Virus record (IMG/VR): IMGVR_UViG_3300006080_000092
Span: 1 to 21,805 of that record
Source: a virus
Length of the DNA stretch: 21,805 bases
Direction: 5' to 3' (one strand)
Part shown: positions 3,235-17,230 of the stretch, one piece after another
Position numbering within the stretch: position 1 is the first letter of the stretch
Layout: the number at the start of each line of letters is the position of its first letter
Position numbers and translations under genes: made by a program
The notes under the pieces: model-generated
What the model saw: only the letters and a program-made list of their open reading frames with translations
The model's database searches: none
Told to the model about the DNA's origin: nothing

Positions 3235-5295
3235 ATGAATATACAAAGTCAAGATTACCTAGCAAAGTTACTTGCTAAAGAGAACCTTACCGTTCAACAC
3301 GGTAACTATTCAACAGCTTCATTCAACGTTGTAGATAGAATACTTAGTCTTCCATTATGGGCAGATAAAGGTAAAGCTGTTTACGATTTATTAGTTGGTC
3401 ATGAAGTAGGACATGCATTATACACACCTGCAGAGGGGTGGCATGATTCCGAATCTAAGATTCCAGGTGTTCCAAGATCAATGATTAACATCATCGAGGA
3501 CATTCGTATCGAGAAGTTAATTCAAAGAACATACCCTGGTATCGTAAGATCATTTAAGAAAGGTTATAAGATCTTATTTGATGACAACCTATTCGGTACA
3601 GTCGGTAAAGACTTAACTAAATACGGTTTCATGGATAAGTTAAACATCCACTCTAAAGGCAGAGGATATGCTAAAGTTGAATTCGACGATACAGAACAAA
3701 TGTTTGTTGATTTAGCTATGAAAGTTGAGACTTGGGATGATGTGCTTAATGCGTGTTTGGAGATTAATGATTTCTTGCAAAACCGCGATGATTATAAATA
3801 TGAAGATAAGGAGAATGAAGATGAGAACACTGAAACAGGAAGTGCATGTGGTGAAGAGTCAGATGAAACAGGATCCGACATGGGGCAGACTGATGAAGTC
3901 GGCGAAGACACTAGCGATGCACCGTCAGATAGTAAACCAGCTGAAAATGAGTCAGTAACTGATGATGCCCAACGTGAAAACGAGGGTGATCTTTTAGAAA
4001 AAGATGAACGTGGTAAGCAACCAGCTTACTGTGATGGTATTAAAGAAGATACTATTGATCAAATGGTTACTACGTATAAAGATCTTGCAGCTGCACGAGC
4101 TAAATCTGAGGCACGTACAAATTATTCAATATACAACAACGAATTTGTCAGTGCTAATTTTGAAACCTTTATATCTGAGAGCAAGAAAGTCGTGGCTCAA
4201 ATGGCTAAGGAATTTGAACGTAAGAAAGCTGCATTCGAATATAGCCGTAGTCAAACTGCAAAGAAAGGTTCTTTGGATGTTAACAAACTTCACCAGTATC
4301 AATACAGTGAAGATATCTTTCAAACAGTAACTCAGTTAGCGCAAGCTAAGAGCCACGGCATTGTGTCAGTACTTGACTGGTCTGGATCAATGAGTGGCAT
4401 CATCGAAGATGTTGTTAAGCAGTCAATTCAAATAGCAATGTTCTGTAAGAGAGTTAACATTCCATTTGAGTTTTACACTTTCACAAGTGGTGCAAATGAT
4501 GTTGACATTGATAAGCTACCTATGGGCACTATACAGAATGTCGATAGAGTCCGCATTACTGAGATTACTAATAACCGTTTGAGTAAAGCTGACTTCATGG
4601 GATCTATTAAAGCGTTATTTGCAGCAGCTATTATCACTGGTGATTATTCTACACGTACTAGCACAGGCATCTATTATGGAGATTTGTGCACATATGATCG
4701 TATGGGTTCTACACCTCTTATCGAAACTACGATTGCGTTAGCTACATTAGTCTCTAGGTTCCAAGCTAGAAACGCTATTCAGAATACTAACATCATCATC
4801 CTAACCGATGGCCAACCAGATTATCTTTCATTGACACAAGATTACAGTGATAATAATTTGAGTATAGACACATACAATATTGTATTAAACTTTAAAGGTA
4901 AAACTATTAAAGGTTCATCTACCGAAGAGATATACAGTGAGTGTGTTAAAGCCTTGAAAGCTTATACTAACTCAACTGTAATGTGTTTCTTCTTGGCTGG
5001 AGGTAATCAAGATTTCTTAATGGGATTTTACAAGATAGGTGGTTACGTTGATAATTCAATTAAGGATAAGGCTGTTAAAACCTTTAAGGCTGATGGTCTC
5101 CACGTTACTAGCAATGTCAACGGTTATGATAAATTCCTTATTATCAAGGTTGGTGATAAGAATGTTGCAACTGAATTTGAACCTAAGAAGACAGAGAAGA
5201 TTTCAGACATCAAACGTGAATTTAGAAAGTTTAATAAGAACAAGAAGCAAGTTAAGAAGTTAGTTAAAACAATCACAGATGCGGTTGCCGCATAA
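3235..5295 (+). CDS. vWA-domain protein with N-terminal HExxH metalloprotease-like domain (CobT-like)
   Basis: A 686-residue protein in three parts. Residues 1-190 carry HEVGH at 56-60 followed by NIIED at 85-89, the layout of a gluzincin-type zinc peptidase with a possible third ligand at Glu88. Residues 190-270 are a very acidic, Ser/Thr-rich linker. The C-terminal half is a von Willebrand factor A domain with a complete MIDAS: DWSGS at 381-385, Thr at about 493 and TDGQPD from 524. Such proteins are annotated CobT-like and pair with MoxR/CobS-type AAA+ ATPases, and one lies just downstream with a matching promoter. The pair probably forms a metal-dependent remodelling or chaperone machine. 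Cobalt chelation is not implied. The ribosome site GAGAAAAGG (3217-3225) fixes the start. The real substrate is unknown. Confidence 0.85.
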   Translation: MNIQSQDYLAKLLAKENLTVQHGNYSTASFNVVDRILSLPLWADKGKAVYDLLVGHEVGHALYTPAEGWHDSESKIPGVPRSMINIIEDIRIEKLIQRTYPGIVRSFKKGYKILFDDNLFGTVGKDLTKYGFMDKLNIHSKGRGYAKVEFDDTEQMFVDLAMKVETWDDVLNACLEINDFLQNRDDYKYEDKENEDENTETGSACGEESDETGSDMGQTDEVGEDTSDAPSDSKPAENESVTDDAQRENEGDLLEKDERGKQPAYCDGIKEDTIDQMVTTYKDLAAARAKSEARTNYSIYNNEFVSANFETFISESKKVVAQMAKEFERKKAAFEYSRSQTAKKGSLDVNKLHQYQYSEDIFQTVTQLAQAKSHGIVSVLDWSGSMSGIIEDVVKQSIQIAMFCKRVNIPFEFYTFTSGANDVDIDKLPMGTIQNVDRVRITEITNNRLSKADFMGSIKALFAAAIITGDYSTRTSTGIYYGDLCTYDRMGSTPLIETTIALATLVSRFQARNAIQNTNIIILTDGQPDYLSLTQDYSDNNLSIDTYNIVLNFKGKTIKGSSTEEIYSECVKALKAYTNSTVMCFFLAGGNQDFLMGFYKIGGYVDNSIKDKAVKTFKADGLHVTSNVNGYDKFLIIKVGDKNVATEFEPKKTEKISDIKREFRKFNKNKKQVKKLVKTITDAVAA

Positions 5296-5531: not shown

Positions 5532-5563
5532 ATAATTATAAACAATTGAGAAAGGACTATATA

Positions 5564-6736
5564 ATGAAAAATGTAAAACAAGAAGTTTTTGCCAAAGTAG
5601 CAGAGACACACACAAAAAATGATTTCACTGTTAAAGAGATATTAGCAATCGCTGATAACTTCGGTTGGAAACGACAAGCAGTATACAATCAACTTAAGAA
5701 ATTCCCTAAAGTAGGTACTAGATCAGGTGAAGGTGTATATAACCTTGAAGCTGCTTTAATCCCTTTCAGGGCTAAGCCATCACCAACTACTGTTCAACAA
5801 GTAGGTGTTTCATCTGTTTCTAACGATGAGGTATATATCCCTGAAATTGATAAGACATTCGTCGCTTGGGGTAACTTTAAAGATGTCTCAACTATCATTA
5901 ACTCAGGTGCATTTTACCCTACATATGTTACAGGTTTATCTGGTAACGGTAAGACGTTCATGATCGAACAAGCATGTGCTAAGGCTGGACGTGAATATGT
6001 TCGTGTTCAGATCTCTCCTGAGACTGACGAAGATGATTTAATTGGTGGTTTCCGTTTATTAGCTGGTGAAACAGTATTCCAAAAAGGACCTGTTATCAAA
6101 GCTATGGAAGCCGGAGCAGTTCTGTTGATTGATGAGATTGATCGCGGTACTAATAAGATCATGGCCCTTCAAGGTGTTTTGGAAGGCAAGCCTGTTCTAA
6201 TTAAGAAAACTGGTGAGATCATCAAACCTAAGAAAGGTTTTAATGTAATTGCTACTGCTAATACAAAGGGTAAAGGCTCTGATGATGGTCGCTTTACAGC
6301 TGCTACAATCATTGACGAAGCATTCCTAGAACGTTTCACTATTACCATTGAACAAGCATTCCCAGCTCAAAAGACTGAGCAAAAGATTCTTAAGAAGCAC
6401 ATGGAGAAGTTTGATTGTGTTGATGAAGAGTTTGCAACACTATTGACTGGTTGGGCTGATACGATTCGTAAGACGTTTGAAGATGAAGGTATTGATGAGG
6501 TTATTTCAACTCGTCGTCTTTGCCACATCGTACAGACATTCAGTATCTTCGGTCAACGTGAGAAAGCTATCTCATTATGTATTAATCGTTTTGATGATGA
6601 TACTAAAGAAGCTTTCCTTGATCTTTACTCTAAGGTTGATGCAACCATCAACAGTGTTGATGATTATGGCACAGACTGCTATGATGACGTAGCAGAAGAT
6701 AGTGCTCAAGTTCCTTATGCTGATTACAAACTATAA
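5564..6736 (+). CDS. MoxR/CobS-type AAA+ ATPase with N-terminal helix-turn-helix-like region
   Basis: A 390-residue ATPase. Residues about 15-60 (DFTVKEILAIADNFGWKRQ and following) look like a winged or simple helix-turn-helix. The AAA+ core has Walker A GLSGNGKT at 124-131, Walker B LLIDEID near 187-193, sensor 1 ATANT, and an arginine-finger-like FLERF. This is the CobS/MoxR pattern, and such ATPases act with a vWA partner, here encoded just upstream. The ATG at 5564 is chosen because GAGAAAGGA (5548-5556) is the ribosome site; an in-frame TTG at 5546 lies within that site and is not credible. T4 itself lacks this pair, but T4-like marine phages often carry a cobS-like gene. Function in infection is unknown. 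Confidence 0.88.
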   Translation: MKNVKQEVFAKVAETHTKNDFTVKEILAIADNFGWKRQAVYNQLKKFPKVGTRSGEGVYNLEAALIPFRAKPSPTTVQQVGVSSVSNDEVYIPEIDKTFVAWGNFKDVSTIINSGAFYPTYVTGLSGNGKTFMIEQACAKAGREYVRVQISPETDEDDLIGGFRLLAGETVFQKGPVIKAMEAGAVLLIDEIDRGTNKIMALQGVLEGKPVLIKKTGEIIKPKKGFNVIATANTKGKGSDDGRFTAATIIDEAFLERFTITIEQAFPAQKTEQKILKKHMEKFDCVDEEFATLLTGWADTIRKTFEDEGIDEVISTRRLCHIVQTFSIFGQREKAISLCINRFDDDTKEAFLDLYSKVDATINSVDDYGTDCYDDVAEDSAQVPYADYKL

Positions 6737-10252: not shown

Positions 10253-11116
10253 ATGGCTAAGATTAGATATTCTGAATACTTTTACTCAGTACAGGGTGAA
10301 GGTAAATGGGTAGGCACTCCAAGTGTCTTTTTAAGAACATTCGGTTGTAATCTCGAGTGTAATGGATTTGGGCAGCCTAGGGATAATCATATGCCCGTTG
10401 AGGATATGCCTTATATGCAAATCGATGTTGATAACTACTCTTCAGTAGAAGAGTTGCCAGTTGTTGATATTGGTTGTGACTCTTCAGCTTCTTGGAGTAA
10501 GAAGTATAAGAAGTTAAGTCCATTCGCAGATACATATGACTTGGCAATGGAACTGGATGGATTACTTCCTGGTTCAACCACATTCAAAGATCATGTACAC
10601 TTAGTCATTACTGGTGGCGAACCTATGTTGGGTTGGCAAAAAGCATACGTTGAAATGTTACAGTATCCCCAATTCGATAACCTAACACATATTACATTTG
10701 AGACTAATGGGTCTAAGATGGTACAACCTGTATTAATTGATTACTTCAATAGTATCAATGATATGAAAACTGAAGTAACTTGGATGGTATCGCCTAAGTT
10801 AACATTGACAGGAGAGGATCAAGCAGTAACTATTCAGCCTGATGTTCTATTAGCAATGAATAAAGTTATGAACTCTTATATTAACTTGAAGTTTGTTATT
10901 AGAGACGAAGAAGATATCGTCGAAGTTCAGAATGCAGTACAAGCATATGAAGACGCTGGAGTGTATATTGAATCAGTATTCTTAATGCCTGAAGGTGCTA
11001 CTATTGAAGGTCAAATGTTAACCGAGAAGAACGTAGCCGATCTCTGTATGGAGTATGGATATAAGTTCTCCCCTAGATTACATATTAACTTATTTGGCAA
11101 TAGCTGGGGTACATAA
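10253..11116 (+). CDS. queE: QueE, 7-carboxy-7-deazaguanine synthase (radical SAM) with displaced third cysteine
   Basis: Converts 6-carboxytetrahydropterin to 7-carboxy-7-deazaguanine (CDG) on the way to preQ0. The N-terminus EYFYSVQGEGKWVGTPSVFLRT is typical QueE, and ITGGEPMLGW is the SAM-binding GGEP motif. The cluster motif is unusual. Cys32 and Cys36 have the normal CX3C spacing, but CX2C is absent (CNGF). The third cysteine is probably Cys75 in GCDSSASW, which corresponds to WCDTKHTW in E. coli QueE. This implies an insertion of about 36 residues (40-73) between the second and third ligands. Length 287 (E. coli 223) fits an inserted form. It overlaps the next gene by one base. Confidence 0.9.
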   Translation: MAKIRYSEYFYSVQGEGKWVGTPSVFLRTFGCNLECNGFGQPRDNHMPVEDMPYMQIDVDNYSSVEELPVVDIGCDSSASWSKKYKKLSPFADTYDLAMELDGLLPGSTTFKDHVHLVITGGEPMLGWQKAYVEMLQYPQFDNLTHITFETNGSKMVQPVLIDYFNSINDMKTEVTWMVSPKLTLTGEDQAVTIQPDVLLAMNKVMNSYINLKFVIRDEEDIVEVQNAVQAYEDAGVYIESVFLMPEGATIEGQMLTEKNVADLCMEYGYKFSPRLHINLFGNSWGT

Positions 11117-11583
11117 TGACTAATTATACATATGATGAATACTTAAGAGATATCCTAGCAATTGAAGATAGATTATTAACCTTGATATCTAGAGGTCATA
11201 AAATTCACTTAATTGGTATATATAGAGGATCACTACCAATGGCTGTTCACTTATCTAATATCTTACCAGCTGAGATGTCTATTATTAAGTTTCAGACCAG
11301 AGATGGTGATGATAAAGTTCCTGAATGGGTATTGGATAATACCAAATTAGGTGATACCTTAATTATATTAGATGATATATATGACTCTGGTAAGACTATG
11401 AAAGTGATTGATAGTTTCTTGAGGGATGATAAACCAGAGTCATACATTGAGAGCCATGTACTGATAGGGTCTGAGAAGGCTGAAGCAGATGGAGTTTTTT
11501 ATTATACTGAACACAACAAAGAATGGATTGTGTTCCCATGGGAGATAGATTATGTTAGTGAAGTCAACGAAAGCGTGGCATAA
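11116..11583 (+). CDS. phosphoribosyltransferase
   Basis: A type I phosphoribosyltransferase, 155 residues. The PRPP-binding signature LIILDDIYDSGKT lies near residues 87-99, and IGIYRGSLPMAVHLSN (about 34-49) is the PPi-loop region. The family attaches purine or other bases to PRPP. Lying between queE and queD and sharing overlapping stop/start codons with both, it may act on a deazapurine base or feed guanine nucleotides to FolE; neither is shown by sequence. The ATG overlaps the queE stop (TAATG). Confidence 0.85.
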   Translation: MTNYTYDEYLRDILAIEDRLLTLISRGHKIHLIGIYRGSLPMAVHLSNILPAEMSIIKFQTRDGDDKVPEWVLDNTKLGDTLIILDDIYDSGKTMKVIDSFLRDDKPESYIESHVLIGSEKAEADGVFYYTEHNKEWIVFPWEIDYVSEVNESVA

Positions 11584-12106
11584 GTTACCATGCGGGCATG
11601 CCCAATGGTTTGATGAAGAGTCAGATGGAAGTGCAGGTGCTTGTTCAGCTGTACATGGATATGATAGAAGTATTAAGATGACATTCGTTGGCGAAGTAGA
11701 TGAGATGGGTTGGATCGTACCCTTTGGAGAGTTAAAGAGTGTTAAGAAGTTCTTAGAATATTACTTTGATCACACAACAGTTATTCCAGCAAACGATCCG
11801 AGGTTAGGTGCATTTCATGAAGTTAATGAAATGACAGAACCTCCAATGTTTAAATTAAGAGTTTTACCATATGGTGTATCTATGGAGATGAGTTCAAGAT
11901 TTATTTGGGAACAAGTAAATCCTTTCATCTTCGCAGTCACCGATGGTAGATGTTATGTTGAGAAAGTAGAATCTATTGAACATGATTCTAACTCAGCATA
12001 TGTAGAAGTAAGTAAAGAAGAAGCGGAGACGCAGGCTTTGATGACAAAAAACGAATTCCTAATCATGAAACCAGAATGGGAATGGCAACCACCAAAGGAG
12101 AAATAA
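11552..12106 (+). CDS. queD: QueD, 6-carboxytetrahydropterin synthase
   Basis: Converts dihydroneopterin triphosphate, the FolE product, to 6-carboxytetrahydropterin. Recognisable segments are AWHKLPCGH (zinc His10), CSAVHGYDRS (catalytic Cys31, His35), GEVDEMGWIVPFGELK, FDH (Asp73, His74) and a late EKVES that holds the conserved Glu140. In E. coli the second motif is CxxxHGH with both His binding zinc; here the second His is Tyr37. At 184 residues it is longer than E. coli QueD (121), with insertions after residue 17 and around 80-105. It begins 32 bases inside the previous gene, with GGGAG before its ATG. The fold call is firm; zinc coordination is in question. Confidence 0.88.
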   Translation: MLVKSTKAWHKLPCGHAQWFDEESDGSAGACSAVHGYDRSIKMTFVGEVDEMGWIVPFGELKSVKKFLEYYFDHTTVIPANDPRLGAFHEVNEMTEPPMFKLRVLPYGVSMEMSSRFIWEQVNPFIFAVTDGRCYVEKVESIEHDSNSAYVEVSKEEAETQALMTKNEFLIMKPEWEWQPPKEK

Positions 12107-12783
12107 TGCACGACAAGGCAAAACAAAACGAACAACTAGGTAGAGAAGTAAATGAATACTTAGTTAAGATGGGTGTGCAAACACCAATGACTGATCAAGT
12201 AGAGGTAGATAATGCTGTTAAATTACTACTAATAGAGGAACAAACAAGAGATATGTTATTAACTCTAGGATTGGATTTAACAGATGATTCATTAATTGAT
12301 ACACCGAAGCGAGTAGCTAAGATGTATGTTAATGAGATCTTCTCGGGACTTAGGGCTGATACATTCCCTAAGTGTACTGCAGTAGACAATAAGATGACTA
12401 GTGGAGATGAGTTTGTATTAGAGAAGAATATTACTTTATTCTCTGACTGCGAACATCACTTACGACCAATCATTGGTAAGTGTCATATTGCATACATCCC
12501 AGGTAAGAAGGTATTAGGTCTATCTAAGATGAATAGATTAGTACATTACTTTGCAAGACGACCTCAGATTCAAGAACGTCTTAATCAACAAATTGCACAT
12601 GCAATGGCTTACATTACGGGATCAGATGATGTTATTGTTATCATCGATGCTGGTCACACTTGTGTGAGTCAACGCGGTGTCATGGATACCAATTCGACCA
12701 CAGCTACTCTCACCGCATTAGGTAAGTTTGGTGAACCGGATTCACCATTGAGACGAGAGGTATTGGCAGCAGCTAATAGCTAA
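12106..12783 (+). CDS. folE: FolE, GTP cyclohydrolase I
   Basis: Catalyses the first step, GTP to dihydroneopterin triphosphate. The zinc ligands Cys115 and His118 lie in SDCEHHL and Cys186 lies in GHTCVSQRG. GLSKMNRLVHYFARRPQIQERL and the STTATLTALG ending are typical of type IA enzymes. The start at 12106 is chosen because AAAGGAG (about 12093-12099) precedes it and the ATG shares a base with the queD stop; an in-frame ATG at 12076 lies inside queD without a ribosome site. Length 225 (E. coli 222). No catalytic residue is missing. It is followed by a terminator. Confidence 0.96.
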   Translation: MHDKAKQNEQLGREVNEYLVKMGVQTPMTDQVEVDNAVKLLLIEEQTRDMLLTLGLDLTDDSLIDTPKRVAKMYVNEIFSGLRADTFPKCTAVDNKMTSGDEFVLEKNITLFSDCEHHLRPIIGKCHIAYIPGKKVLGLSKMNRLVHYFARRPQIQERLNQQIAHAMAYITGSDDVIVIIDAGHTCVSQRGVMDTNSTTATLTALGKFGEPDSPLRREVLAAANS

Positions 12784-13139: not shown

Positions 13140-13546
13140 TGTATGCAGTTTATGTATTAAGACTGCAACGTGAATTTGCAGATAACAATACCTATGATGT
13201 TTTAAAAGTAGGTATTACTAAAGACTTAGATACACGTATCAACTATAAGGGTTTAGATGAGAAGTGGCCCATATGGAAAGTATGGAGCGACGTTGATATC
13301 TTACATTGTACTGATTATGCATACGATGAAGATACAGCCCTTAAGGTAGAGAAATCTATTATGGATACTATATCTATTAAAAATAATTCATATCACGCAG
13401 ACACAGGTGAACCTAGATTTCATAACTTTAGTGAAACACATATGATATCAGGTATAACCGAGATGCGTAGGTATTATCAAGAGGATGCAGATAAAGCTGT
13501 ATCCGATTTAATTAAACTGGAGGCATATCTTGAAAACGTATCATGA
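13139..13546 (+). CDS. GIY-YIG-like domain protein
   Basis: A 135-residue protein. YAVYVLRL (residues 2-9) stands for the GIY strand, KVGITKDLDTR (23-33) for the YIG strand and catalytic arginine, and Glu71 in KVEKSIM may be the metal-binding acid. This is the T5orf172-like, KVGIT form of the GIY-YIG fold rather than the homing endonuclease form. No zinc finger or DNA-binding tail is visible, so it is not an obvious homing enzyme. It is coupled to the genes on both sides. A role as an endonuclease specific for modified or unmodified DNA next to dpdA is possible but unproven. Confidence 0.65.
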   Translation: MYAVYVLRLQREFADNNTYDVLKVGITKDLDTRINYKGLDEKWPIWKVWSDVDILHCTDYAYDEDTALKVEKSIMDTISIKNNSYHADTGEPRFHNFSETHMISGITEMRRYYQEDADKAVSDLIKLEAYLENVS

Positions 13547-14348
13547 ATCACCACTATCAATATTTAAAGGAGTTCAACAAGTAACTGATGGAGATTATGC
13601 ATTAGTACACTTATTCGAAACTAACCCCGCATACTTCCAGACATTCAAAGATGCAGTTAATAGTGGTAGAGAAGTTATCTTAGATAACTCTTTATTTGAA
13701 TTAGGAGAGAGCTTTGATCCTGATCGGTATGCATATTGGATTGAGGAGTTATTACCTACATGGTATATCATTCCAGATACACTGGGTGATGGTCCAGATA
13801 CTATTAGAAAGTTTGATGAGTGGATGGGTAAGCATGCCGATTCATTACCTGGTAAGACTATAGCCGTGGCTCAAGGCAAGAACATGCAGGAGCTTATTGA
13901 ATGCTATACTGCATTAGTAGAGAACGTAGACATGATTGCAATATCATTCGGTAATGAATGGTTTATTGATAATCATCCTATACTTGAATTTAATAGTTTA
14001 AAGACTACTAAGTATCATTCATATATGTGTGGACGTATAGCCTTAATAGATCATATGGTTAAGTATAACATTATTGATGAAAATACACCACATCACTTAC
14101 TTGGATGTGGATTGCCACAAGAGTTTAAATCATATCATAATTATGATTTTATAAAATCAGTAGATACATCTAATCCTGTAGTGCATGGTATGAAGGGTAT
14201 TAGATATACTGAGAGTGGATTAGAAACTAAAGAGTCAGTGTTACTATGTGACTTAATGGATGCTGCAATTGCCGGTGACAAGTTGGATGATATCATGTAT
14301 AATATACTTATGTTTAGAAAATTTTGCAATGGAGGTGAATTAAAATGA
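13530..14348 (+). CDS. dpdA: DpdA-type 7-deazaguanine DNA transglycosylase
   Basis: A TGT-fold enzyme that swaps guanine in DNA for a 7-deazaguanine base. Phage DpdA hallmarks are VILDNSLFELG (about 49-59), YIIPDTLGDGPDTI (79-92) with Asp83, IAVAQGKN (111-118), LLGCGLPQEF (190-199) and SVDTSNP (210-216). I cannot decide by eye which Asp is the nucleophile. The start is a TTG at 13530, supported by GGAGG at 13519-13523 with ideal spacing and no nearby ATG; it overlaps the previous gene by 17 bases. At 272 residues it is a compact phage form. FolE, QueD, QueE and QueC nearby supply its substrate, which makes the assignment strong. Confidence 0.9.
   Translation: MKTYHESPLSIFKGVQQVTDGDYALVHLFETNPAYFQTFKDAVNSGREVILDNSLFELGESFDPDRYAYWIEELLPTWYIIPDTLGDGPDTIRKFDEWMGKHADSLPGKTIAVAQGKNMQELIECYTALVENVDMIAISFGNEWFIDNHPILEFNSLKTTKYHSYMCGRIALIDHMVKYNIIDENTPHHLLGCGLPQEFKSYHNYDFIKSVDTSNPVVHGMKGIRYTESGLETKESVLLCDLMDAAIAGDKLDDIMYNILMFRKFCNGGELK
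14275..14303 (+). promoter_or_regulatory. internal sigma70-like promoter within the end of dpdA
   Basis: GTGACA (14275-14280), 17 bases, TATAAT (14298-14303) extended to TATAATATA. The -35 hexamer, spacing and extension equal those of the gene 44 promoter at 8378. Transcription would begin near 14310, about 35 bases before the Dcd-fold gene, and could serve dcd-like, amidotransferase, queC and sbmA-like genes. Confidence 0.65.
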
Positions 14349-14836: not shown

Positions 14837-15458
14837 TATATTCGGTAGTTTTAATAGAGTAGTATTATCTGAATTGGTTCATATGAATCAGTTTAAAGGT
14901 ACGTTTTCATATTCATTAACACAAGGTGATCGAACTCATAAAGACTTCGGTACATTTAATCAATCTACTATTGCGTTGATTGGTAAGTCTGATGAGTATA
15001 TGATAGGTCATGTGCAAGCACCCACAGGTGGGATGGTTGAAGATACTACTCGTATCCATCCAACATCTATTGGTAGTTCATTGCTGTGGCATAATGGATT
15101 GATTACCCCTAGAGGTATTACTTACTTACAAACGAAGTTAGAATCCGATGAAGAATTTGATACTAAGCTATTGCATGAATACTTTGTTAAGAATAACTTT
15201 ACAGGCTTAGGTGAGATTGAAGGCTTATTCACTTGTGTATTTAAACATGGTAATGAGTTCTATGTATTTAGAACTAAGCATGGTAAGCTGTATGTGAATG
15301 ATGACTTAGATATATCATCAGAGAGATTTAAGGATTCTAAGTGTATTAACTATGATACGGTTTATAGAATGGACTTCGAGAGAATGAAATTACAACCCGT
15401 AAGTAAGTTTAAGACAAAGAGATTTAACTATATTATTGAAGGAGAAATGGATGATTGA
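14829..15458 (+). CDS. class II glutamine amidotransferase (Gat-like)
   Basis: A 209-residue N-terminal-nucleophile amidotransferase. It starts MCSIFGSF, so Cys2 becomes the catalytic N-terminal cysteine; GHVQAPTGG, WHNGLIT and the NxxF-type elements follow, as in GATase II domains. ATG 14829 is fixed by this cysteine and by AAGGAG at 14811-14816; it overlaps the previous gene by 8 bases. Its own end overlaps queC by 8 bases. In Thermoproteota and phage 9g, a fused Gat-QueC amidates preQ0 to archaeosine. Here the two domains are separate, adjacent genes. Transfer of glutamine ammonia to preQ0 is the inferred role; no synthetase domain such as AsnB follows. Confidence 0.8.
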   Translation: MCSIFGSFNRVVLSELVHMNQFKGTFSYSLTQGDRTHKDFGTFNQSTIALIGKSDEYMIGHVQAPTGGMVEDTTRIHPTSIGSSLLWHNGLITPRGITYLQTKLESDEEFDTKLLHEYFVKNNFTGLGEIEGLFTCVFKHGNEFYVFRTKHGKLYVNDDLDISSERFKDSKCINYDTVYRMDFERMKLQPVSKFKTKRFNYIIEGEMDD

Positions 15459-16221
15459 TTTACCAGAGACTAGTAAGAACGTATGTATTGCATTATCAGG
15501 TGGACTAGACTCCACCGTTTTGGTTCATGCATTAGTAAAGAAGTATGGGTCTGATAGGGTTAAGGCTATATCATTTGACTTTGGTCAAAGACATAACATT
15601 GAATTAGATATGGCTGAAGCTACTGCTGATAAGTTAAACATCGATCATAATGTATATCGACTCGATTACTTAAAGGATATTGCTCAGGAGACATGTGCAT
15701 TGATTGCTGGATCCAATCTTAAACCTAAGACTGCAGAAGAGAATGCAGGTGATCCACAAGTCAATACATATGTGCCATTTAGAAACTTACAGTTCGCTGC
15801 TATCACCGCAGCATATGCAGAAGCTAAAGAATGTGAGATAATCTTTCAAGGATTGAATGCTGTAGATGAATATGGTTATTGGGATACATCACTTGAGTTC
15901 ACTAAAAGAGTTAATGACATACTAGCATTGAATAGACAAAACTTAGTGAAATTCGTCGCACCTTTTGTAGAGCTATATAAAGATGATGAGTTACAATTAG
16001 CCAAAGAGTTATCAACACACTTTGGTTATGATATCCTAGAGAAGACTTGGTCGTGTTATAACGGCTGGTCAGAGGAGTATAACTTTAAAGAATGTGGTGT
16101 ATGTAATACATGCACAGAGAAGTTAACTGGTTATATTCAAGCTGAATATACTAATGAGGTGATTATGAATAAGTTTAATGTTAATGAAGATACAATTGAA
16201 TCGATAAGGTGTAAGTTATGA
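15451..16221 (+). CDS. queC: QueC, 7-cyano-7-deazaguanine (preQ0) synthase
   Basis: ATP-dependent conversion of CDG to preQ0. The PP-loop SGGLDST is at residues 16-22, FDFGQRH follows at about 50, YVPFRN and GLNAVDEYGYWDTS are typical. The zinc site is complete: Cys202, Cys215, Cys218, Cys221 in CGVCNTC. Length 256 (E. coli 231). ATG 15451 is chosen for AAGGAG at 15439-15444; a TTG at 15436 precedes that site and is rejected. It overlaps the amidotransferase gene by 8 bases and the transporter gene by 4, so all three are coupled. Confidence 0.95.
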   Translation: MIDLPETSKNVCIALSGGLDSTVLVHALVKKYGSDRVKAISFDFGQRHNIELDMAEATADKLNIDHNVYRLDYLKDIAQETCALIAGSNLKPKTAEENAGDPQVNTYVPFRNLQFAAITAAYAEAKECEIIFQGLNAVDEYGYWDTSLEFTKRVNDILALNRQNLVKFVAPFVELYKDDELQLAKELSTHFGYDILEKTWSCYNGWSEEYNFKECGVCNTCTEKLTGYIQAEYTNEVIMNKFNVNEDTIESIRCKL

Positions 16222-17189
16222 TAAAGTCATTCTTCTTTGGTCCGTTTAAATCCTATGCTTGGTGGACACTATCATTTCTTGTATTACTAGTTGGATTTCA
16301 AGCATATCTGGTAAGGCAGTTTAATGATTGGTATAAGGTCTTTTATGATGCCTTAGAAGATAAGGATCAAGATGCATTTTATGAAAGTTTCATTAATAGG
16401 GGTGATTTATTATTCTATGATGTGACTACATGGGGATTCATTCCGTTAGCTTTACTAGCTATTATTATGTTTGCTTATACTCAATTCCTTGGTAACAGAT
16501 TCTCTTTTAGATGGCGCGAAGCTATGACATGGCATTATCTCCCAACATGGAAGGCTATGGATAATGTAACTGAAGGTGCTTCACAACGTATACAAGAAGA
16601 TACTAAAAAGTTTGCATGGTTTGTCTGGGTATTGGGTGAAGGTTTGGTTAAGGCTATTATGATCTTAGTATTCTTTCTTCCAGTACTATGGACGTTAAGT
16701 GAAGGCTTTGGTATACCTGGATATCTTATTTGGATTGCATTAGGTGTAAGTGTTGGTGGGTTAGGTGTATCAGCCGTTATCGGACGTAAGTTACCAAAGC
16801 TTGAATATAATAATCAACAAGTAGAGGCTCAATTTAGAAAGCATCTTGTGCGATGCGAGGATGATAGAAAGATTCATAGTCTTGAAGAGCTCTTTGATAT
16901 ATTTAAGCATCTTAAAGTTAATTACTATAACCTATATAACAATTACAAGTATTATTCGTTATGGGAGAACTTATACTTTCAAGCTGGAGTTATTATTCCA
17001 TATATGGTATCGGCACCTCAATTCTTTGTTGGAGCGATTACATTAGGAACACTAGTACAGATTGGTAACGCCTTTGATAAGATACATGAATCTATGAGCT
17101 TCTTTACAGATAACTGGATGACAGTAACAGAACTTAAATCAGTGATAATTCGTTTAAAAGAGTTTGAATCTGATATAAATAAATCATAG
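16218..17189 (+). CDS. SbmA/BacA-like peptide transporter homologue
   Basis: A 323-residue integral membrane protein with about five to six hydrophobic spans (near 15-35, 62-86, 130-160, 165-190 and 250-285). It aligns well with E. coli SbmA: NDWYKVFYDALE, FSFRWREAMTWHYLPTW, GASQRIQEDTKKFAW, FLPVLWTLS, NQQVEAQFRKHLVRCEDD, ITLGTLVQIGNAF and ELKSVIIRLKEFE all have counterparts in order. SbmA (406 residues) is a proton-driven inner-membrane importer of peptides such as microcins B17 and J25. The phage form lacks about 80 N-terminal residues including the first SbmA helices. Like SbmA it has no ATPase domain. Its ATGA overlap with queC ties it to the modification operon. What it carries is unknown. 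Confidence 0.88.
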   Translation: MIKSFFFGPFKSYAWWTLSFLVLLVGFQAYLVRQFNDWYKVFYDALEDKDQDAFYESFINRGDLLFYDVTTWGFIPLALLAIIMFAYTQFLGNRFSFRWREAMTWHYLPTWKAMDNVTEGASQRIQEDTKKFAWFVWVLGEGLVKAIMILVFFLPVLWTLSEGFGIPGYLIWIALGVSVGGLGVSAVIGRKLPKLEYNNQQVEAQFRKHLVRCEDDRKIHSLEELFDIFKHLKVNYYNLYNNYKYYSLWENLYFQAGVIIPYMVSAPQFFVGAITLGTLVQIGNAFDKIHESMSFFTDNWMTVTELKSVIIRLKEFESDINKS

Positions 17190-17206
17190 GATGCTTCGGG
17201 TCCTAT
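17186..17206 (+). terminator. hairpin with C(UUCG)G loop after the sbmA-like gene
   Basis: ATAGGAT (17186-17192) pairs with GTCCTAT (17200-17206), with C17194-G17199 closing a TTCG tetraloop and one G left over. C(UUCG)G hairpins are typical intercistronic elements in T4. No T-run follows, so it is more likely an mRNA stabiliser or processing barrier than a simple terminator. Confidence 0.55.
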
Positions 17207-17210
17207 AGGA

Positions 17211-17230
17211 AGAGTGACAAGAGTTACTCT
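17211..17230 (+). terminator. second hairpin upstream of the Hsp20 gene
   Basis: AGAGTGAC (17211-17218), loop AAGA, GTTACTCT (17223-17230): eight pairs with one G-T wobble, followed by ATAATTTAAA. It may be a weak terminator together with the preceding hairpin. Confidence 0.5.

Follow-up and report, generated by a model that had tools for sequence, protein, structure and literature searches.

The window analysed here, a stretch of 21,805 bases that comes from virus record IMGVR_UViG_3300006080_000092, carries an intact gene, maintained by selection, for an inner-membrane transporter of the SbmA/BacA family. The gene is one of a group that many marine phages possess and that has no fixed association with the neighbouring DNA-modification genes. 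Newly seen in the clade of the window protein is an apparent change of the SbmA proton path, in which glutamate E203 is replaced by tryptophan and a new glutamate is present one helical turn on. The gene probably codes for a working proton-coupled importer of the SLiPT family and serves as an auxiliary gene; the coupling or the substrate of the importer may be altered.

Identification of the transporter gene and its predicted fold

16218..17189, + strand: sbmA-like gene, short (TM0-less) SLiPT-type transporter of 323 aa (PF05992, PDB, Foldseek, NCBIfam)
17188..17230, + strand: two predicted hairpins between the sbmA-like gene and the Hsp20 gene (weak fold signal)

The reading frame is uninterrupted, and its product matches the Pfam family SbmA_BacA (PF05992) over positions 6-314 of the 315-position profile (E 3e-77), with a score of 260.6 bits against a gathering score of 24. 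The best solved relative in a phmmer search of the PDB was E. coli SbmA (7p34, E 3.2e-48), residues 5-321 of the query being aligned with SbmA 76-394. These two matches bear out the initial annotation, which had recognised the phage gene as one for an inner-membrane transporter similar to SbmA/BacA; the segments FRWR, GAxQRxQED and ELxS, which it had listed as retained, are indeed found (FRWR at 97-100, GASQRIQED at 120-128 and ELKS at 305-308). A match to ABC_membrane_2 is weak (1.6e-16), and the protein contains no nucleotide-binding domain, all matches stopping at the end of the membrane domain. Among the NCBIfam models the best was the short "putative transporter" NF009036/PRK12369 (6.5e-89; 298.5 bits, below its cut-off of 385 bits; model positions 1-323 of 326), followed by the SbmA model with 220 bits.

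The AlphaFold model computed with 60 viral sequences reached a pLDDT of 85.7 and a pTM of 0.77, while an earlier, poor run with 10 close sequences (pLDDT 50.4) was set aside. The top five PDB matches obtained by Foldseek with this model were SbmA chains in four conformations (TM 0.69-0.86), the best being 9g3g (TM 0.86), and Rv1819c ranked after them; the predicted model and its PDB matches thus display a SLiPT fold with the TM1-6 core. No SbmA-like entry was found in BFVD. The two hairpins behind the gene fold with -20 kcal/mol (z -1.74), a weak signal equalled by 13 of 200 shuffled sequences.

Short length and cellular relatives

E. coli SbmA has two additional N-terminal helices, TM0a and TM0b (PMC13316013), which are absent from the window protein together with about 76-80 N-terminal SbmA residues; since the alignment to 7p34 begins at SbmA 76, the loss of some 80 residues reported in the initial annotation is correct. 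The short start is real, because in-frame stops are situated 0-6 codons upstream of it in 15 of the 15 viral relatives read, which excludes a wrongly called start codon as the cause of the shortness. A phage-specific truncation is excluded as well by the identical short build of cellular proteins. The suggestion that the short length reflects a dominant-negative truncation was not upheld either, as many bacteria normally have SbmA-like proteins of 319-351 aa without TM0. The short gene was detected in 84 of 99 genomes of a family with small genomes (G369, 0.7-1.6 Mb), in 14 of 40 genomes of one gammaproteobacterial family and in at least 9 of 63 of an order. Judging from its small genomes, low G+C content and SAM-V riboswitches (above the cut-off in 11 of 21, none in the controls), G369 is probably SAR11. 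In this family a small gene, about 93-102 aa long, often precedes the sbmA-like one (L118, L119, L126, L127). In the loci read, the cellular short forms stand alone, with no ABC ATPase gene directly alongside, except for L125, where the gene adjoins one for a separate 618-aa protein of no assigned family.

Recent capture from a host was rejected, the closest cellular relatives in the sampled genomes (up to 400 per group, so that a closer cellular parent may exist) being just 46-48% identical to the window protein, although the host may be unsampled. A pattern scan of genome contigs, with patterns that were overly specific, yielded five matches, all of them long proteins of ~590-600 aa with 29-30% identity.

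Viral relatives and selection

Two scans of IMG/VR with different patterns, the second a profile of the clade alignment, led to the same 17 loci, 79-87% identical. The initial annotation had reserved accidental capture for a gene absent from all relatives, a case that these 17 viral loci exclude. All viral relatives are metagenomic contigs. The pairwise dN/dS values within the window clade, 0.03-0.11 where dS is unsaturated, denote strong purifying selection. Moreover, the sbmA-like gene is 79-83% identical across phages whose replication genes are 30-57% alike or unrelated, which argues for its repeated transfer and retention.

The degenerate pattern EGAxQR[IV]QED was matched by at least 120 stretches in IMG/VR. 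The motif was readable in 76 of the 79 new loci fetched (L132-L210), whose complete proteins are mostly 316-353 aa long and nearly all, as far as read, TM0-less. Next to them lie, among others, genes for tail sheath, virion structural, head maturation protease and baseplate proteins, and these loci are therefore phage contigs. Like the window protein, they encode short phage-borne forms; unlike the window clade, they retain E203, and their closer affinity is either with E. coli SbmA (41-50%) or with the SAR11-like short forms (56-66%). In the maximum-likelihood tree of 82 sequences, some branches of which are long (YddA 2.66), the phage sequences form at least three groups: the window clade is a deep branch of its own (86/98), its placement relative to the root not being firm, one viral clade (100/100) lies on the SbmA side, and further viral sequences fall inside the SAR11-like short clade. 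Since a gammaproteobacterial form is found inside that clade too, some of its viral-record sequences could be cellular.

Three "phage" records with SbmA at 33% (two 254-kb Acinetobacter records and an unannotated one of 7.5 kb) were left out. The records OR850887.1, CAKLQH020000002.1 and CAKLQF020000003.1, filed as phages, carry a bacterial-type sbmA and are probably bacterial DNA. None of the papers searched contains both "SbmA" and "auxiliary metabolic genes", and phages are not mentioned in a survey of the family (PMC12003926).

The glutamate ladder

16596..16598, + strand: codon of E127 (SbmA E193), a retained ladder glutamate (alignment; coordinate from the ORF start)
16626..16628, + strand: codon of W137 at the position of SbmA E203 (alignment)
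16638..16640, + strand: codon of E141 (SbmA position 207), the new glutamate one helical turn from W137 (alignment)
17130..17132, + strand: codon of E305 (SbmA E378), a retained ladder glutamate (alignment)

The proton path of SbmA involves E193, E203, E269, E276, E287 and E378, and the loss of any of these glutamates inactivated or severely impaired transport by the E. coli protein (PMC13316013). In an alignment referred to E. coli K-12 SbmA, E193, E269, E276, E287 and E378 are retained in 10 of 10 members of the window clade; in the window protein itself the middle three correspond to E196, E203 and E214. With five of the six ladder glutamates in place, the window protein was therefore classed as SLiPT-like, its ladder being altered, and not as a standard SbmA. 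Column 203, around which the alignment is free of gaps, holds tryptophan in all ten clade members as against glutamate in 158 of the 159 other relatives (cellular short, cellular long and other viral sequences), the lone exception being a glutamine; E203 is present in 71/71 other viral sequences and in 53/53 cellular short forms. As the ten sequences of the clade share descent, the loss of E203 counts as one event, not ten. All ten have a glutamate at SbmA position 207, i+4 from 203, and the equivalents of both residues share one helix (121-164) of the AlphaFold model. Among 34 cellular long forms a glutamate at 207 is confined to two, both of which also have E203, so a history in which E203 was lost after the gain of the glutamate at 207 appears possible.

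Taken together, the window protein resembles E. coli SbmA and rhizobial BacA (7p34, 9g3d-9g3g) in its TM1-6 core, fold, QR[IV]QED and ELxS motifs, five ladder glutamates and the lack of an ATPase domain, and differs from SbmA by a sequence identity of 32-34%, the missing TM0a/TM0b, the residues at 203 and 207 and a Phe at gate Y368. The short cellular forms (NF009036/PRK12369, 326 aa; the SAR11-like family and some gammaproteobacteria) are similar to it in length, TM0-less build and 42-48% identity, but keep E203, whereas the window protein scores under the model cut-off and occupies a separate tree branch.

Genomic context

10253..12783, + strand: queE, phosphoribosyltransferase, queD and folE, neighbours (profile matches)
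13530..14348, + strand: dpdA-like DNA guanine transglycosylase gene, neighbour (48.7% to "DNA guanine transglycosylase" of Flavobacterium phage immuto)
14826..15458, + strand: putative class-II glutamine amidotransferase-like QueC partner, starting with MCSIFG, neighbour (phrog_12378, 8.9e-27)
15436..16221, + strand: queC, neighbour, not part of the transporter (PF06508, 3.2e-47; TIGR00364 above the cut-off)
16218..16221, + strand: ATGA, in which the queC stop overlaps the sbmA-like start (sequence read)

The window is part of a T4-like genome, with gp46/47-like proteins, sliding clamp, clamp loader, regA-type repressor and a family-B polymerase that shares no more than 49% identity with any phage record compared. 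By their predicted products, the queE, queD, folE, dpdA-like, amidotransferase-like and queC genes indicate a 7-deazaguanine DNA modification. Vibrio phage relatives of the amidotransferase-like gene overlap features annotated as 7-cyano-7-deazaguanine synthase. In the window this gene and queC are two overlapping genes and not a fused Gat-QueC, and because the two parts are separate here, dG+ is putative. The phosphoribosyltransferase gene inside the que cluster (11116-11583) is 75% identical in a related contig, L014. The dpdA-like gene of that contig (L014:17187-18008) is 24% identical to that of the window while the rest of the que clusters share 75-86%, suggesting that the transglycosylase may have been replaced between the two. 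Elsewhere in the window, a 686-aa protein annotated as a peptidase (3235-5295, phrog_459) adjoins a MoxR-like AAA ATPase (5546-6736, AAA_5), a pair conserved in relatives.

An AAGG lies ~8 bases ahead of the ATG of the sbmA-like gene, and translational coupling of queC and sbmA at the ATGA overlap is possible. The initial annotation had described the transporter as coupled to queC: the adjacency is real, with queC confirmed and the ATGA overlap present, whereas functional coupling finds no support in the 14 of 15 distinct loci where queC does not adjoin the gene. Nor was any QueC match obtained on seven contigs that carry the gene, of which three measure 60-78 kb, though such contigs are fragments and do not prove absence from the phage. 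Consistent linkage with que/dpdA genes was thus not seen, and the link was rejected as a rule. The gene follows regA in L002, L003, L009-L012, L014, L017 and L018 and gp46 in L004, L005 and L016. It is also carried by quite different phages, L006-L008 (family-A polymerase, DnaB-like helicase) and, likewise different, L013/L015. The order in L010-L012 is regA, sbmA, one small gene and polymerase, and in L003 Hsp20 and a small gene stand between sbmA and polymerase. From these gene orders, the position after queC is seen as a local feature of the window, at a site of variable gene content between regA and the gene for the DNA polymerase.

Most relatives have no transport gene alongside. In three of them, however, the neighbour is tctA, which overlaps the sbmA-like gene by 4 bases:

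L002:3611-5185, L009:6178-7065, L014:10963-12531: tctA, large subunit of a tripartite tricarboxylate transporter, overlapping the sbmA-like gene

The TctA match in L014 has an E-value of 3e-87. The gene is followed there by one for a secreted 353-aa protein that resembles a secreted binding protein; it is not named TctC, as Pfam, NCBIfam and the PDB gave no match. On viral contigs of SUP05, tctA was once mentioned as a potential auxiliary gene (PMC4164917). A gene for a PnrA-like (Bmp) substrate-binding protein (PF02608, 2e-43) comes after the sbmA-like gene in L143, L144, L183, L191 and L198, and in L191 the next gene codes for a 2OG-Fe(II) oxygenase. Both kinds of neighbour occur within related phages and do not amount to many independent events. 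In another phage group (L145, L146, L147, L151, L168, L170, L174, L175, L177, L190, L204) a cassette upstream of sbmA encodes a MotA/ExbB-like protein (PF01618, 1.5e-05 in L151) and a one-helix membrane protein of no assigned family, often with further small membrane or secreted proteins.

Proposed function

The best supported interpretation is a phage-made importer that would be driven by the proton-motive force and take up a peptide-like substrate. During infection the phage would make the short, TM0-less SbmA/BacA importer as an auxiliary uptake gene; the transporter would form a homodimer and couple proton influx to the uptake of a peptide or another bulky hydrophilic compound, and in the clade that lost E203 and has a Glu one turn on, coupling or substrate may have shifted rather than activity been lost. 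The whole-profile PF05992 match, the SbmA-like fold, the spread of the gene, purifying selection and the five glutamates speak for an importer, as do the other short SbmA-like genes beside virion genes in many viral contigs; the tctA and PnrA-like neighbours of some relatives appear to fit uptake better than exclusion. Against it stand the Trp at a position kept as glutamate by nearly all relatives and the lack of adjoining transport genes in most of them. Of the two guesses of the initial annotation, import of a nutrient or precursor seems the better one.

The other guess, a transport-dead phage subunit that joins or displaces the host SLiPT, closes this route and shields the cell from peptides, is considered unlikely. 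It stays in view because a ladder glutamate is lost in the whole clade and such losses impair SbmA; SLiPTs are dimers (PMC13316013), and a conserved blocker could show purifying selection as well. However, the five other ladder glutamates are retained and a Glu is present at i+4, the short length, shared as it is with cellular forms, does not count as evidence, and an identity of ~45% to the nearest cellular forms makes mixed dimers doubtful. Given the full ladder of the other phage groups, phage SbmA genes as a whole are not dead.

Still less probable is a split ABC transporter of which the window protein would be the membrane half and which would use a host ATPase for ATP-driven export or import. 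Besides the weak ABC_membrane_2 match, this reading draws on the descent of SbmA from YddA-type ABC transporters, some of which have split ATPase and membrane genes (PMC13316013). Nevertheless, the window protein retains E269 as well as E287, the latter being a residue that YddA and 5 of the 6 sequences over 480 aa (mostly ABC-type) lack, and no ABC ATPase domain or gene was found in the protein, in its neighbours or adjoining the viral and cellular short-form loci read (the family of the 618-aa neighbour in L125 being unassigned). BclA, mycobacterial BacA (Rv1819c, 6tqe) and YddA, which possess an ATPase domain, are only distantly related to the window protein in sequence and fold, whereas the latter has none and retains the SLiPT-type glutamates.

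The import of preQ0, preQ1 or a related precursor for 7-deazaguanine DNA modification is quite improbable: the reading frames overlap with queC in the window and que genes occur on L014 as well, but queC adjoins in this one locus only and was absent from the seven carrier contigs (fragments), the preQ0 transporter in a survey of phages with such modification was YhhQ (PMC6884629), and the window, which encodes its own folE, queD, queE and queC, therefore makes preQ0. A passenger gene retained by chance at a hypervariable spot, for which the differing gene content between regA and polymerase in related phages could be cited, is very improbable and already contradicted by the low dN/dS over long divergence and by carriage in several unrelated phages.

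A broader reading, in which marine phages have their own SLiPT branch with a rewired proton path and a coupling or substrate unlike that of cellular SbmA, feeding or protecting the infected cell, is put forward tentatively. SbmA-type importers have been investigated as routes by which antibacterial peptides enter cells. Should short versions of them be widespread in phages, the uptake repertoire of an infected marine bacterium would change. The TM0-less forms also bear on the proposal that TM0 is merely a scaffold (PMC13316013), and the natural exchange of E203 for Trp, with a Glu at i+4, offers a test of how the glutamate ladder works.
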